Source of the DNA: Dactylellina haptotyla
Lineage: Eukaryota; Ascomycota; Orbiliomycetes; Orbiliales; Orbiliaceae
DNA length: 64,000 nt
Direction: 5' to 3'
Assembly (NCBI GenBank): GCA_031310005.1
Contig: CM062379.1
Location: forward strand, 1,364,001-1,428,000
A program made the position numbers and the translations under genes. Below, one piece after another: positions 45,202 through 59,033 of this stretch. The stretch's first letter is position 1. Each line of letters starts with the position of its first letter. A model generated the notes under the pieces. It was not told the DNA's origin. It did not search any database and was given only the letters and a program-made list of their open reading frames with translations.

Positions 45202-46785
45202 ATGGCTCGGCGTATATTCTCAAAGTGAGTTCCTCGCCCTCTTTCTTTCTTTTCTGCTTTAAACATCTTCCTTTGCATTTACTTTTGCATCCTTCATTTT
45301 TTACTTTTTAATTTTGGTACTACCAGCGTGGGTTTCACAGCTCGACGCTCCGATCTCTTCCCATCATTGCCGGAATTGAAAGAAACCTACAGAACTACGA
45401 ACCTCCCCATGCTAACCCGGTCTCTCGCCCACAGCTGCATGCTAGCATGTATAGCAATATTTCTCTTCGTCACTCTCCTTTCATTCTTCGATCCCGGATC
45501 AGGAACAAATACGGCGATAGGAAATGACGGCCTCTTCCACGAAGGCACAGGCGGTGACGACTCGTTGAACGGCGCAATAGGACAGCGGCCAGGGGAATCA
45601 ACTCCTGAACCTTATCAAGTTGCAGACCCACCGCAGAACAAACCAGACCCTCCAAAGCAAGAAGAACCCCAGGCACAGCAGCAGCAACAGCAGCCGCCGG
45701 CACCACAGCAAGATCAAAAGGAACCTCCCAAGCACAAGGACCCTGACACAGAAAAGAAGAAGAAAGGCCCGATCCCAGTCCCGAAACCACAATGGACCTT
45801 CGAAGTCAAGGATGACGTGTATTTTGACCCAGCCGGCCCTAAGCCGGAGCAAGTCGTCCTCCTGATGGCCAGCGACGGCAAGGGCCACAACGGCGGCATC
45901 AACAACCTCCTCGAACAGGCGACCAAGAACCGCCAAGAATACGCCGACTTCCACGGCTACCACTTCCACTTCATCAACATCTCCAAATATGACTTGCACG
46001 GCGCGGCCCCAGTCTGGGCCAAGATCCCAGCGCTGCTAGATACGTTCATCCAGTTCCCGGACGCGCACTGGGTGTGGTGGCTCGATCTCGATGCGATCAT
46101 CATGAACCCGGATATCGACCTCAACTCGCACATTCTCTCGCACGCCGCGATGCGCACCAAGTTCGAGGCTGGCGTCGAGTTCCTGAGGGGCGGTAGCGAG
46201 CACACAGGACATTACATGAGCAAGACTGCCGATCCGAAGGATATCGACATCATCATCGGACAGGACCACAACGGGCTAAACGCTGGAAGCTTCTTCTTGC
46301 GCCGCAGCGCTTTCACAAAGATGTTGATGGACTGGTGGGAGGAGCCGTTCTACGTGTACAACGGCTGGCCGGGGAAGGAGCAGGATGCTTTGGTAAGTTG
46401 CCGCGTTAAAGCCGCATCATTTCTACACGAGGAAAAAAAAGTGTATACTAATTGGTCTGTTTGCAAATAATAGCTACACATGGTTCAGCACCACCGCCAG
46501 GTCCGCGAACATACCGCGTTAGTGCCGCAGAGAGTTCTCAACGGCTTCCCGGTTGGGTGGGTGCATATGGGCTGGCATAAAGATGATCTGGTGGTGCATC
46601 TGGCTGGCTGCTGGGTCGAGAATGCGTGTAACCAGCGGTGGACAGACTTCTGGAACAAGAAGATCACGGTAGCAGATCTCAAGGACAGAGGGATCACAAA
46701 ACCGACGGATCATACGGGGATGATTACAAAAATCTCAGACGAGGGTACGGTATACGTCCGATTCGAAGACCGGACTGCGGCTTAA
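45202..46785 (+). CDS. Golgi alpha-1,6-mannosyltransferase, GT34 (MNN10/MNN11-like)
   Basis: Exons 45202-45224 (23 nt, MARRIFS), 45327-46392 and 46474-46785 sum to 466 residues. It is a type II membrane protein: the signal anchor is CMLACIAIFLFVTLLSFF (about 40-57), followed by a Pro/Gln-rich stem containing a QQQQQQQ-like run. The catalytic domain has VVLLMASDGKGHNGG, WAKIPALLDTFIQFPDAHW, the DxD metal site in WWLDLDAIIMNP (about 260), DHNGLNAGSFFLRRS, WWEEPF and HMGWHKDDLVVHLAGC. This matches Mnn10/Mnn11 subunits of the yeast M-Pol II complex that extends N-glycan mannan backbones. Which of the two it corresponds to is not decided. Confidence 0.9.
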
Positions 46786-51372: not shown

Positions 51373-52833
51373 ATGAAGTTCACTCCAGAGATCGCCGCTG
51401 CTATCCTCCTCTTCTGCTCCTCTGTATCCGCAGGCCCCATCCGAGCCCGTGACGTCGCCGTATATGGTACGGACGGCGGCGATATCAGACACACCGCACG
51501 GGATGTTCAGAGCTGGGGTCAGAACCAGAGCTGGGACCAAAGTGAAGAAGCCGAACTTAGAGAACTTGCAGCACCAGCTGCTGCCAAATCTCAAAAGAGA
51601 CAGGTAGCTCAGAACTGGGGTCAGAACCAGAGCTGGGACCAGAGTGAGGAGGCAGAGCTTAGGGAACTCGCAGCGCCCGCCGCCGCCAAGTCACAGAAGC
51701 GGCAGGTAGCTCAGAGCTGGGGTCAAAATCAGAGCTGGGATCAGAGTGAAGAAGCTGAACTTAGAGAACTTGCAGCACCAGCTGCAGCTAAATCCCAGAA
51801 GCGACAGGTTGCTCAGAACTGGGGTCAAAACCAGAGCTGGGATCAGAGTGAGGAAGCCGAGCTTAGAGAACTCGCAGCACCAGCTGCAGCTAAATCTCAA
51901 AAGCGACAGGTAGCTCAGAACTGGGGTCAGAACCAGAGCTGGGACCAGAGTGAGGAGGCAGAACTTAGAGAACTTGCAGCGCCCGCCGCCGCTAAGTCAC
52001 AGAAGCGACAGGCTCAGAGCTGGGGTCAGAATCAGAGCTGGGACCAGAGTGAGGAGGCAGAACTTAGAGAACTTGCAGCGCCCGCCGCCGCTAAGTCACA
52101 GAAGCGACAGGCTCAGAGCTGGGGTCAGAATCAGAGCTGGGACCAGAGTGAGGAGGCAGAGCTCAGAGAACTCGCAGCACCAGCTGCGGCCAAGTCCCAG
52201 AAGCGACAGGTAGCTCAGAGCTGGGGCCAGAACAGCTGGGATCAGAGTGAGGAAGCGGAACTTAGAGAACTCGCGGCGCCTGCCGCCGCCAAGTCGCAGA
52301 AGCGTCAAGTGAAGTCCTCAAAGGAATGGGCGATTTCGATGGCCCAGCGCAAAAATATGGACCCAAAGTTCATTGAAGGTCTCCGCCAGACTCCTCTTGA
52401 GACCTTCGAGAAGCTCCGCATCGTCGGCAGGAAGCTCCACCAGGCCACCACCCTCCTCTGGGACGGCGAAAAGCCAAAAATGATCACCTTGCCCACTCCT
52501 CAGACTCCTGACCAGCGCAGCCGTGATCCCAACAGTCAGATCCGTGGTAAGATCACCTCGAAGGATTGGTTCCTCAAGTGGGCTGAGATGCGTCACCTCT
52601 CCGCCGATGCGAAGAAAGCTATCCAAGATATTGACCCTGCAAAGTTCGAGGCTCTCAAGGGCAAACCAACCAAGGAGAGGCTGATCGAAGAGGCCAAACT
52701 CATGAAGTTGGATGATAAGGTCAAGTTCTTCAATAGCGTCGATCAGAGCGTTTACGAAGAGATGGATAAGCTTAGAAACGCGGCTAAGGATGCTCGCACT
52801 GCCTGGAAGGAGGGAAAGAAGCCAACTTTGTAA
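51373..52833 (+). CDS. Secreted Kex2-processed repeat peptide precursor with helical C-terminal domain
   Basis: Intronless, 486 residues. Residues 1-20 form a signal peptide (hydrophobic AAAILLFCSS, likely cut after SVSA). A short propeptide follows. Residues 47-311 hold eight near-identical units of 33-34 residues, each with (N/S)WGQNQSWDQ, then SEEAELRELAAPAAA, and ending KSQKR; every unit ends in Lys-Arg, the Kex2 site. Cleavage would release several nearly identical peptides starting QVAQ or QAQ and a 175-residue C-terminal product starting QVKSSKEW. The mature units contain no cysteine. The C-terminal part is helical, with Trp in SKEW, TLLW, SKDW and TAW. The layout matches fungal Kex2-processed repeat proteins, which include alpha-pheromone precursors and dikaritin RiPP precursors. 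No UstYa-like or peptidase gene lies beside it. Function is unknown; I recognise no named homologue. Confidence 0.9.
   Translation: MKFTPEIAAAILLFCSSVSAGPIRARDVAVYGTDGGDIRHTARDVQSWGQNQSWDQSEEAELRELAAPAAAKSQKRQVAQNWGQNQSWDQSEEAELRELAAPAAAKSQKRQVAQSWGQNQSWDQSEEAELRELAAPAAAKSQKRQVAQNWGQNQSWDQSEEAELRELAAPAAAKSQKRQVAQNWGQNQSWDQSEEAELRELAAPAAAKSQKRQAQSWGQNQSWDQSEEAELRELAAPAAAKSQKRQAQSWGQNQSWDQSEEAELRELAAPAAAKSQKRQVAQSWGQNSWDQSEEAELRELAAPAAAKSQKRQVKSSKEWAISMAQRKNMDPKFIEGLRQTPLETFEKLRIVGRKLHQATTLLWDGEKPKMITLPTPQTPDQRSRDPNSQIRGKITSKDWFLKWAEMRHLSADAKKAIQDIDPAKFEALKGKPTKERLIEEAKLMKLDDKVKFFNSVDQSVYEEMDKLRNAAKDARTAWKEGKKPTL
51511..52305 (+). repeat. Eight tandem coding repeats (90-102 bp)
   Basis: Unit ends fall after each Lys-Arg codon pair: 51511-51600, 51601-51702, 51703-51804, 51805-51906, 51907-52008, 52009-52107, 52108-52206, 52207-52305. 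Units 6 and 7 lack one residue (QAQ in place of QVAQ), and unit 8 lacks one Gln (GQNSW). Protein identity is nearly complete while third codon positions vary widely. Confidence 0.97.
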
Positions 52834-55492: not shown

Positions 55493-56917
55493 TCAAATTG
55501 TGGTTGCATTCCCATCCGCTAGCAGATCGAGACCTTCATCCCAAGGAACCCACGAGGTCTGATGCCAGATTGGTATACATTTAATCGCCCCAGGCGGCTT
55601 TGGATCCCATTTGATCATTTCCCCCGGCCATTTGCTAGGGTCTATGGCAATCTTTCCTTCGTACAAATCAATGTTGTCACTAGTCCAGCCGTTCTTGGAT
55701 TTGGTCTTGTTGCCCGAATCCACGAAATATCCTAGGTTAATGCTCGGTACTACGGCAATGCGGTTATAGTTGTGGTACCATAGGTCTTTGCATAAATGCA
55801 CAGGTTCTCCGAGATGGCATTCGACGGCTTCACGCGTACCGTCCTCTTTGAATCCGGATAAGGCCTTCGAGCGGAACTTGATATCCCCCGTGATTATCGG
55901 GTCGGCGACAAATGTAACTGCCCCGTTCCAGCAGCTGAACACTTGGAACGGAACCTTACCGATGAGTCTTTTTCTTGTCCTTTGATCGTTCCAGAATAGG
56001 TTACCTGCGAAATCCCAGCTGGCGTCCTGCGGGATCTCGAAGAATAGATCTCCATTCATTCCACGAGACACCCAAACGTCGTAAAACGCACCTCCGTCAT
56101 TTACCCAATCCATGGCGCAGGTCATATGGGCAGATTGCTTCCGCCGTTGATGGAGAAGCTCGAGAATGTCTTCAGCACATATCGCCACGTCGTTGATGAA
56201 TATCACCGTGGTCTGGTATATGTTGAGGGGGTAAAGGTTGGCATTCTGAGCGAGGGGTTTGATGGCGAGATTGCGCAATGTTGCCAACGATATTATCCGA
56301 TCAGAACCCTCTCCTTTGGGATTGATATCGTTACTACCAAAGTAATACTTCAAGCCCATCTGCTTGAATACCGGGATGAGAAGCTTAAGCACCTCAAAAG
56401 TACCATCATTCGAACGGCCTTCAACAATTGACAAGGTGCATTTTTCTGGGCCGAGAATACGCACCACCTCCACGATCGAGCCTAAAAGTGTGGGGAGAAT
56501 GTGACGACATTCAAAGAGGTTGAGAGCGAAGAAATATTTTGGTTTTCGGGTTGATGGATACTTCCCCTCTGCCTCTGTTTCTGATACCGAATTCGCAAGG
56601 TACTCATAGCGTCCAGGCTTTGGACGGGGACAATCGAGACGATCAATAGTCGAGTTTACCGTCGTCGAATCAAGGATCATGCGAACATATTTATTACCCT
56701 GTGCGAGTAGTCTCAGGTCTCCGTTACGAACAGGATCCGGGTGCCATTCTTTTTTGGGAGGAATGGGGCCTCGGAGTTGCCCCAGAAGAGCTGGCTTCAG
56801 AGACAGTTTTGGCCTTACGGCGAAAATGGAAGACAGATGATATCCTAAATAAAATGTAGCAACTATGACGAGTATGAGACCAATCCTCAATCGATGGAAA
56901 CGGCGCGAAAGCGCCAT
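55493..56917 (-). CDS. GT69 glycosyltransferase (CAP59/CMT1-type mannosyltransferase)
   Basis: Intronless, 474 residues, ATG at 56917. Type II membrane topology: a short basic N-terminus, then IGLILVIVATFYLGYHL. The luminal domain carries YFFALNLFECRHILPTLLGS, LSIVEGRSNDGTFEVLKLL, VIFINDVAICAEDILELL, MDWVNDGGAFYDVWVSRGMN, WDFAGNLFWNDQRTRKRL, FQVFSCWNGAVTF, CHLGEPVHLCKDLW and VVPSINLGYF. This is the Cryptococcus Cap59/Cmt1 family; Cmt1 is an alpha-1,3-mannosyltransferase. In Pezizomycotina the acceptor is generally unknown but is presumably a cell-wall or glycoprotein glycan. It is divergent to a GT61 gene with only 373 bp between starts. Confidence 0.92.
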   Translation of the reverse strand: MALSRRFHRLRIGLILVIVATFYLGYHLSSIFAVRPKLSLKPALLGQLRGPIPPKKEWHPDPVRNGDLRLLAQGNKYVRMILDSTTVNSTIDRLDCPRPKPGRYEYLANSVSETEAEGKYPSTRKPKYFFALNLFECRHILPTLLGSIVEVVRILGPEKCTLSIVEGRSNDGTFEVLKLLIPVFKQMGLKYYFGSNDINPKGEGSDRIISLATLRNLAIKPLAQNANLYPLNIYQTTVIFINDVAICAEDILELLHQRRKQSAHMTCAMDWVNDGGAFYDVWVSRGMNGDLFFEIPQDASWDFAGNLFWNDQRTRKRLIGKVPFQVFSCWNGAVTFVADPIITGDIKFRSKALSGFKEDGTREAVECHLGEPVHLCKDLWYHNYNRIAVVPSINLGYFVDSGNKTKSKNGWTSDNIDLYEGKIAIDPSKWPGEMIKWDPKPPGAIKCIPIWHQTSWVPWDEGLDLLADGNATTI

Positions 56918-57290: not shown

Positions 57291-59033
57291 ATGTTCTACT
57301 GCCCTATACACGTACGACGGTCCCGTGTGCTCTCGATACTTCTTTGCATGTCAATTGTCCTAAGCATCTATCGTATGAAATGGGCAGTCCCTTTGCGAAC
57401 AACCCTACAGCCGCTAGAGGGATACCCTAGCATTCACAGGATCGGGAATCAAATACTCGATCATGATACTGCTAACGACCAAGATAAACTCCCATGGGAA
57501 TTAGCTAGATCTCAGCCAGGCCAAGATGTTTTGTTGGACAACTTTCAGCCTTCTCGGCCACCTCTTTCCCCAAAGCATGATGAACCTCATTCGGAAAAAA
57601 CGGAGTTAGAACCTAACAGAGGTACATCACTGAGCAACTTTCAGCTTCCTGCAGATTATATCAATGCCCTACAAGGAGCGGATATCGGTAAGGAGAAGGA
57701 ATGGTGCGACCTTCACTTTGGCCTCCCGTATCTCGAGAATATGGCGTCGAATGTCGTCCAATACTGCACTCCGGATTCTCGTTCTCAAATCGACTGCATG
57801 CACGCAACTCTTGACCCGAATAAAACTAGACATGCCACCGAACAGTTCTGTGTAGTGTTGAATACCGCATGGCATAAAGGTAAATTCTACATTGACTGCA
57901 AGCTGCGTGCGCAGCACGAACTCGATGGTTTCCCGCCTCTCCTCAACTTTACCAAGTCGAAATTATGGTTCCGTAATGGCGCCGGCGAGATCTTAGAAGA
58001 CTGGGCCATCCTAGACGATAACACTGCAACTGCCGGTTATGAAGATTCCGGCTGTAGTAAGCACGATACGCCCTTCGAAGAAGACTACAAAGTGATATAT
58101 AAGCGCGACTCTAAAACCGTCGGCATGGAAAACCTATGGTGCACCTTAACGGAAATATCCTCCTGGTTCGTCACAATGGACGTTCTGCAAATGGCGACGA
58201 ACAAGAGAACCGGAAAGCCTTACATGTCCACAAAGGACGCTGCAAAACTCGAAACGATCACTATCGATGGTACGACCGCCGAAAGATTCGATGATATATA
58301 CAGCTACTTCTCCGGAAAACCCGTCCGCCCTCTCTCAGATTGGAACGTCGACGGCAAGGATGGCACCAAATGCCTCCGAAGGGCAATAATCCCCCTTATC
58401 GGTAGGAGCGGCACCTGGTGGGACATGCCATATAGGAAACTGAACTGCGACCACTCGATACTCGCGGAAACGATCCGCAACCGCTTCCTCAAGCACTTCC
58501 AAATTCCCACCGCTCGAAACTACGATTCCACATTAAATATGACCTTCATCGACCGCGGCAGCACCCCGCGGAGAAAGATCCAAAACATGGCTGAAGTGAC
58601 TGATCTAATTAGAAAGTCGTATCCAAACATCACCCTCACCGTCGTTGATATGAACCTCAAAGCATGGAGGGACCAACTGGACATAGTAACACATACGGAC
58701 ATTTTAGTAGGTGTTCACGGCGCAGGTCATGCGCATAATTTCTTCCTACCGCCACAATCCGCTGTAATCGAGTTGCTCCCCGGTCCCACGTTCAACCGGA
58801 GAAACTATAGGAACCTCGCCAAAATGAGAGGTATGCGTTACTTCTCTGGACATATCACCCAATTAGGCGACTGCGAATGGAGAGTGTGCGAGTGGGTTAA
58901 AGTTACGGACAAGGACGCATTTCTGAGACTAATAGATGCGGCCGTGCAGAGTATGTCCCACCGGGGTACTCTGACCAATAGTGTCGACACTAGTCGACAG
59001 GTTGAGCTACTAGGCCAGCATGATTTTGAATAA
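57291..59033 (+). CDS. GT61 (EOGT/DUF563-like) glycosyltransferase
   Basis: Intronless, 580 residues. An N-terminal signal anchor (RVLSILLCMSIVLSIY) is followed by a stem of about 110 residues and a luminal domain. Family landmarks are EWCDLHFGLPYLENMA, a DRGSTPRRKIQN segment, then DILVGVHGAGHAHNFFLPP (about 470-490) and SAVIELLPG, the conserved core of the DUF563/GT61 fold. GT61 enzymes include plant xylosyl- and arabinosyltransferases and animal EOGT (O-GlcNAc on EGF repeats). The donor here cannot be read from sequence. The ATG at 57291 keeps the hydrophobic anchor 12 residues in; a second ATG at 57348 would cut into it. Confidence 0.88.
   Translation: MFYCPIHVRRSRVLSILLCMSIVLSIYRMKWAVPLRTTLQPLEGYPSIHRIGNQILDHDTANDQDKLPWELARSQPGQDVLLDNFQPSRPPLSPKHDEPHSEKTELEPNRGTSLSNFQLPADYINALQGADIGKEKEWCDLHFGLPYLENMASNVVQYCTPDSRSQIDCMHATLDPNKTRHATEQFCVVLNTAWHKGKFYIDCKLRAQHELDGFPPLLNFTKSKLWFRNGAGEILEDWAILDDNTATAGYEDSGCSKHDTPFEEDYKVIYKRDSKTVGMENLWCTLTEISSWFVTMDVLQMATNKRTGKPYMSTKDAAKLETITIDGTTAERFDDIYSYFSGKPVRPLSDWNVDGKDGTKCLRRAIIPLIGRSGTWWDMPYRKLNCDHSILAETIRNRFLKHFQIPTARNYDSTLNMTFIDRGSTPRRKIQNMAEVTDLIRKSYPNITLTVVDMNLKAWRDQLDIVTHTDILVGVHGAGHAHNFFLPPQSAVIELLPGPTFNRRNYRNLAKMRGMRYFSGHITQLGDCEWRVCEWVKVTDKDAFLRLIDAAVQSMSHRGTLTNSVDTSRQVELLGQHDFE

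Follow-up and report, generated by a model that had tools for sequence, protein, structure and literature searches.

Ustilago maydis Rep1 and Candida albicans Ece1, the source of candidalysin, are precursors from which several peptides of ~30-50 aa are released by Kex2; the Rep1 peptides form surface fibrils, and the Ece1 peptides differ from one another. In the ustiloxin-type dikaritins, a Tyr of the core is used in cyclisation. Rep1 and candidalysin have been named as derived from KEPs (PMC9769878), the fungal Kex2-processed repeat proteins for which definitions come from Le Marquer 2019 (PMC6339444) and from Umemura 2020 (PMC7329392), the Methods of the latter specifying at least three tandem repeats of 8-100 aa between Kex2 sites. 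In the excerpts of these sources used here, KEPs are described as widespread and mostly of unknown function, with a UstYa gene near 22% of them and absent near 78% (PMC7329392); the C-terminal fragment was initially set aside in the Le Marquer pipeline (PMC6339444), and Pfam was run on the KEPs by Umemura (PMC7329392). Additionally, Coprinopsis cinerea protein 365456 was reported to carry a signal sequence, a Kex2-flanked Gln-starting peptide and then a GH128 domain, Gln-starting Kex2 peptides of Coprinopsis were recovered as pyroglutamate forms, and knockouts of six KEPs in C. cinerea displayed no apparent phenotype (excerpts of PMC9769878), which is a warning on claims about function.

Dactylellina haptotyla, an orbiliomycete, is a nematode trapper with knobs as its infection structures (excerpts of PMC10580851 and PMC3828140); expression during nematode infection has been reported in its genome paper, and many of its highly upregulated infection transcripts have been described as species-specific small secreted proteins (excerpts of PMC3828140). 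A full-text search of the mostly open-access literature, with supplements outside its scope, found no paper on Dactylellina together with Kex2, and the gene studied here is not named among the matches listed (titles and abstract starts) in the literature on nematode-trapping fungi concerning Kex2, pheromone precursors, secreted repeats, effectors and ribosomal peptides. Here, we analysed a stretch of 64,000 nucleotides of D. haptotyla (assembly GCA_031310005.1, contig CM062379.1, positions 1,364,001 to 1,428,000 of the forward strand; hereafter the window), in which one gene combines an array of strictly conserved peptides with a domain whose family is traceable within the same genome, and supplies exact masses to seek.

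The precursor and its repeat units

The gene and its parts are as follows, in window coordinates:

51373..52833, + strand, precursor gene, 486 aa, one uninterrupted open frame
51373..51432, + strand, presumed signal peptide, aa 1-20; by inspection Lys2, a hydrophobic core and V-S-A ahead of the cut
51433..51501, + strand, short leader, aa 21-43, without a dibasic site ahead of unit 1
51502..51600, + strand, unit 1, aa 44-76, NQS sequon, closed by KR but with none ahead of it
51601..51702, + strand, unit 2, aa 77-110, KR on both sides, sequon
51703..51804, + strand, unit 3, aa 111-144, KR on both sides, sequon
51805..51906, + strand, unit 4, aa 145-178, KR on both sides, sequon
51907..52008, + strand, unit 5, aa 179-212, KR on both sides, sequon
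52009..52107, + strand, unit 6, aa 213-245, KR-QA start, sequon
52108..52206, + strand, unit 7, aa 246-278, KR-QA start, sequon
52207..52305, + strand, unit 8, aa 279-311, lacking one Gln and with it the sequon
52306..52830, + strand, C-terminal domain, aa 312-486, 175 aa, pI 9.8, net charge +11, with matches elsewhere in the genome

The initial annotation had described this frame as a single intronless ORF with eight Cys-free units each ending in Lys-Arg, and in these respects it was accurate. The KR sites are found at aa 75, 109, 143, 177, 211, 244, 277 and 310 (n=8), no further KR or RR occurs in the precursor, with RK and KK present in its C-terminal part, and its sole Cys is residue 15, within the presumed signal peptide, which has a typical look by inspection. 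Tandem Repeats Finder reported the array (51507-52304) with a period of 102 nt, 7.9 copies and a score of 1071, as the top of seven rows in the window, the next scoring 68. The 175-aa non-repeat part, residues 312-486, makes up 36% of the precursor.

The eight KR-ended units of 33-34 aa fall within the range of at least three tandem repeats of 8-100 aa between Kex2 sites, and, given its presumed signal peptide, the precursor is by the published definitions a KEP. The layout noted earlier, namely tandem KR-ended units behind a signal-like N-terminus, was thus borne out, with no other KR or RR to blur it. The announced release of eight peptides holds in part: all eight units are closed by KR, but only seven of them are flanked by KR on both sides, unit 1 having neither KR nor RR upstream.

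The first half of the unit is Q/N-rich with two Trp, and Tyr is absent from all eight units. Once K and R are removed, the units measure 31-32 aa with a net charge of -3, and those that follow a KR have an N-terminal Gln. The start after KR is QV in five of seven cases and QA, a Ste13-type XA/XP site, in two, and the linker right after KR changes in length between units, being either QVAQ or QAQ. The N-glycosylation sequon NQS is found in units 1-7 (7/8) and is missing from unit 8 because one Gln codon is missing there.

Constraint on the units

Units 1-7 were compared over 30 aligned codons; unit 8 lacks one codon and was excluded. Silent-only variation was found at 20/30 codons and an amino-acid change at 1/30, the single replacement being Ser/Asn just ahead of the first Trp; units 6 and 5, for example, are separated by one silent and one S/N change. 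The alignment has 22 variable nucleotide columns, 20 of them at third positions, and the pooled values are pN 0.008, pS 0.598 and pN/pS 0.013. When neutral change was simulated on a star-shaped tree with as many variable columns as in the alignment, a mean of 14.4 changed codons was obtained, with a minimum of 9 in 2000 runs, against the one observed.

Active RIP has been reported for D. haptotyla (excerpts of PMC3828140), but repeat-induced point mutation does not account for the silent pattern, RIP context being present at only 2 of the 17 transition columns of the unit alignment.

Because far fewer codons are changed than in the neutral runs and RIP context is rare, the precursor frame is real and the unit is held by selection over its whole length. 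On this codon evidence, the peptide sequence of the unit is under strong selection, nearly fixed while the DNA drifted. The constraint spans the stretch from the first Trp to KR, since the linker after KR varies in length, and the pattern suggests that selection sees all 30 residues of the unit instead of a short core.

An uncut repeat protein would also be compatible with strong selection on the units. One reading of this kind, which we regard as rather unlikely, is that of an extracellular repeat protein with a structural or adhesive role, whether cut or not, Rep1-like in kind and perhaps part of an adhesive knob coat. The unit length is within the range of the Rep1 peptides, the Q/N-rich, Trp-containing first half would suit such a role, and the species makes adhesive knobs. 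Furthermore, adhesin-like genes with a signal peptide and tandem repeats were mentioned by Meerupati et al. (excerpts of PMC3828140). However, the unit is neither strongly amphipathic nor hydrophobic (muH <=0.34 and mean H <=0.12, in 11-residue windows of one unit), and no significant domain, and so none known as an anchor or wall domain, came out of the Pfam scan of the window protein.

The C-terminal domain and its relatives

The 175-aa C-terminal domain is predicted to be mostly helical, as its structure model, a single-sequence prediction with a mean pLDDT of 64, is all-alpha. Three stretches were delimited from related units inside the domain together with this model:

52312..52476, + strand, helical unit a
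52552..52665, + strand, helical unit b
52666..52824, + strand, helical unit c

A protein search of the whole genome (11 contigs, 39,806,839 bases; contigs are labelled C1 and so on, the window lying on C1) found a family of at least five genes with at least six copies of this domain. The queries were the window protein and three of its four paralogs, and only the best candidates were scored, so that further members may exist. The four paralogs are:

C7:2.298 Mb, 413 aa, two domain copies in one protein, direct match to the window protein
C7:1.035 Mb, direct match to the window protein
C8:784189-785817 (0.785 Mb; locus L005), direct match to the window protein
C1:2115775-2116593 (2.116 Mb; locus L017), matched only by the C8 and C7:2.298 Mb queries

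The last of these is 17% identical to the window domain; the window protein as query misses it, and the reverse query misses the window gene at E<=0.01. Since neither finds the other, the family link of C1:2.116 Mb is indirect. Across the family, the domain copies are just 17-38% identical and their branching is unsupported, and therefore the family is, judged from these sequences, either old or fast-evolving.

By inspection, all five proteins have a signal-like N-terminus, the other four in the same style as the window gene. KR or RR occurs within ~15 residues upstream of five of the six domain copies; no KR or RR precedes the first copy of the C7:2.298 Mb protein, and the layout of a pro-region followed by a Kex2 cut is therefore not universal in the family. 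The domain part is basic in all five genes, with a net charge of +8 to +25, the upper value belonging to the two-copy protein.

The paralogs also show features of their own. The C8 paralog has a long pro-region with degenerate N-terminal units closed by KR or RR, a second KEP-like precursor of the family, and it carries seven sequons, each of them upstream of its domain: five NST, one NFT and one NKT. In the most divergent paralog, C1:2115775-2116593, the pro-region is very acidic (net -16), and small YDMDAS repeats stand in front of KR.

DUF2795 is a small domain of unknown function that is mainly bacterial. A match to it (PF11387) was obtained at E<=1 in all five family genes, with helical unit a or unit b holding the best stretch; at 40.5 bits, the C8 paralog is over the curated cut-off of 25, the window domain scores 15.1, and the three other genes stay below the cut-off.

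With such a family, the repeats might be an elongated, glycosylated pro-region that helps to fold or escort the domain, in which case the domain would be the active part and the peptides by-products. The five genes do have the domain in common and not the peptide, and the pro-regions vary by gene, as the first unit of the window protein gave no significant alignment with any of the four other pro-regions (best with locus L002, reached by 59 of 1000 shuffles). A generic pro-region, however, need not hold 29 of 30 residues identical in seven units while the silent sites diverge, and charge masking is no common theme, given that the net charge of the pro-regions runs from -16 to +10 across the five genes. 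We consider this alternative unlikely, although it deserves serious weight.

Outside this genome, two protein searches (best 8000 word-sharing candidates; 263 candidates) turned up no homolog of the precursor at E<=0.001, while a control search with the nearby gene 55496-56917 (- strand) recovered H072_6602 of D. haptotyla CBS 200.50 at 93% identity. The suggestion of a lineage-specific gene is consistent with this contrast, but its support is limited, as only the best candidates were scored. For a conserved mannosyltransferase (55496-56917, - strand), 93% seems low within one species, and the strain of the window and CBS 200.50 may, from this comparison, be separate species.

Peptide class, processing and known systems

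A Pfam scan of nine nearby ORFs (eight matched, one without a match) found no UstYa or peptidase domain, and the eight matched ORFs are kinase, histone-fold, glycosyltransferase, carrier and kinesin genes. At least three UstYa matches are present in the genome, at C1:6153432-6153986 (L007), on C10 (L008) and on C6 (L009); of these, the one on the contig of the window is at 6.15 Mb, ~4.7 Mb from the precursor at 1.415 Mb. Both the earlier statement that the flanking genes hold neither UstYa nor peptidase and the preference for a linear peptide over a clustered dikaritin agree with these results. It is highly improbable that the precursor is of the dikaritin type, with its core cyclised by an unlinked UstYa enzyme: ustiloxin precursors share the KEP layout and the genome does have at least three UstYa-family matches, but a UstYa/DUF3328 gene close to the precursor (none among the nine nearby ORFs) and the Tyr that the ustiloxin type has in its core (0/8 units) are both missing, and conservation covers all 30 residues of the unit rather than a short core.

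The C1 UstYa match runs through one TAA, possibly an intron, and the surroundings of the three matches may hold RiPP precursors. Near the precursor, three glycosyltransferase genes of separate families (GT34, CAP59 mannosyltransferase and GT61; 45328-46470, 55496-56917 and 57291-59030) lie within 14 kb.

The Ste2 receptor gene is present in the genome, and a canonical alpha-pheromone precursor was not found there with the PF04648 profile and two motif patterns; the profile gave two matches that fell short of the cut-off, one in a 33-aa and one in a 26-aa frame. The Ste2 ligand is thus unassigned by these searches, and for these reasons the idea that the precursor is an alpha-type mating pheromone precursor in a previously unrecognised form is kept, at low odds. 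The two QA starts would fit Ste13 processing, but five of the seven starts are QV, not XA/XP, and neither MF_alpha (PF04648) nor MF_alpha_N (PF05436) was detected in the precursor by Pfam at E up to 10, where the HMMER filters may drop very short models. To our knowledge, a large C-terminal domain with paralogs in other genes, here four, is not part of the alpha-pheromone family. The trimmed units of 31-32 aa are also outside the alpha-pheromone length class of 9-24 aa (excerpts of PMC6339444). A separate lead for an alpha-pheromone is C4:1010250 (L031), an ORF with the look of a secreted protein that has one KR-DADA (Ste13-type) site, more KR sites and no repeats.

Based on the findings in this work, the best reading is a KEP from which linear peptides, perhaps glycosylated, would be delivered together with a helical protein, and we hold it to be reasonably probable. 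A sequence-specific linear peptide together with a helical protein is most likely because the units show residue-level selection, the domain is predicted to be helical and has paralogs, and no modifying enzyme was found among the nine nearby ORFs. The initial annotation was right on the KEP layout and the lack of clustered RiPP enzymes, but overlooked the C-terminal domain, its paralogs, the sequons, the absent cut site and the codon-level selection.

A Kex2-type gene is present at C3:2745381, with a P domain over the cut-off; by eye, the locus also shows motifs of the subtilase type, a stretch of hydrophobic residues and a tail that is acidic. We infer signal-peptide cleavage, Kex2/Kex1 processing, glycosylation, secretion and any function from the sequence, and the Coprinopsis cases are precedents by analogy for the processing steps, not proof in D. 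haptotyla. First, the signal peptide would be removed, then Kex2 in the Golgi could cut behind each of the eight Lys-Arg pairs, whose K and R a Kex1-type carboxypeptidase could trim away. The expected products would be seven near-identical acidic peptides of 31-32 aa whose N-terminal Gln is open to pyroglutamate formation, one first unit with an N-terminal extension, and one free, basic, mostly helical protein of 175 aa. The monoisotopic masses calculated for the trimmed units are 3539.667, 3512.656, 3413.587 and 3384.597, each lower by 17.027 with pyroglutamate, and the free C-terminal protein would be of ~20.3 kDa. Six of the seven flanked peptides have the NQS sequon and may be N-glycosylated, and a glycosylated product could escape a mass search restricted to the bare 31-32-mers. 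The peptides could be extracellular linear ligands whose effect depends on their exact sequence, directed most likely at prey or the environment, or serving as self-signals, rather than modified toxins. About 7-8 of them would be delivered with each helical protein, itself a member of a small and strongly diverged secreted family with gene-specific N-terminal regions.

A bolder proposal, which we put forward as speculative and doubtful, is an undescribed family of secreted two-part precursors, each joining a diverged basic helical protein to gene-specific Kex2 peptides, the 7-8 selected glycopeptides here working jointly with that protein at the fungus-prey interface. The indirect link of the C1:2.116 Mb paralog and the one C7:2.298 Mb copy without a cut site count against the main two-part reading above.

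Compared with Rep1 and Ece1, by description only, the precursor is alike in that it would yield several Kex2-type peptides, whereas its units are acidic, hydrophilic and near-identical. The ascomycete alpha-pheromone precursors resemble it in the presumed signal peptide, repeated units, Kex2 sites and likely linear product, and it departs from them in product length, the absence of MF_alpha, the inconsistent Ste13 site and the large extra domain. Although all five genes match DUF2795 at E<=1, the unit is here repeated in a secreted-looking fungal protein, and at 486 aa the precursor is larger than the small secreted proteins of D. haptotyla (<300 aa). C. cinerea protein 365456 is similar in its signal sequence, which is presumed in the window protein, Kex2-flanked Gln-start peptide and folded C-terminal domain, but it has one peptide without repeats, and its domain is a GH128 glycoside hydrolase. 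The presumed secretion, the tandem units between Kex2 sites and the lack of a nearby UstYa gene are shared with the KEPs (excerpts of PMC6339444 and PMC7329392), from which the window protein differs by a 175-aa end domain that is common to other secreted-looking genes and has no Pfam match above the cut-off. In conclusion, we have seen no description, in those excerpts of PMC6339444 and PMC7329392, of this variant, in which a repeat array is fused to a domain that has secreted-looking paralogs.
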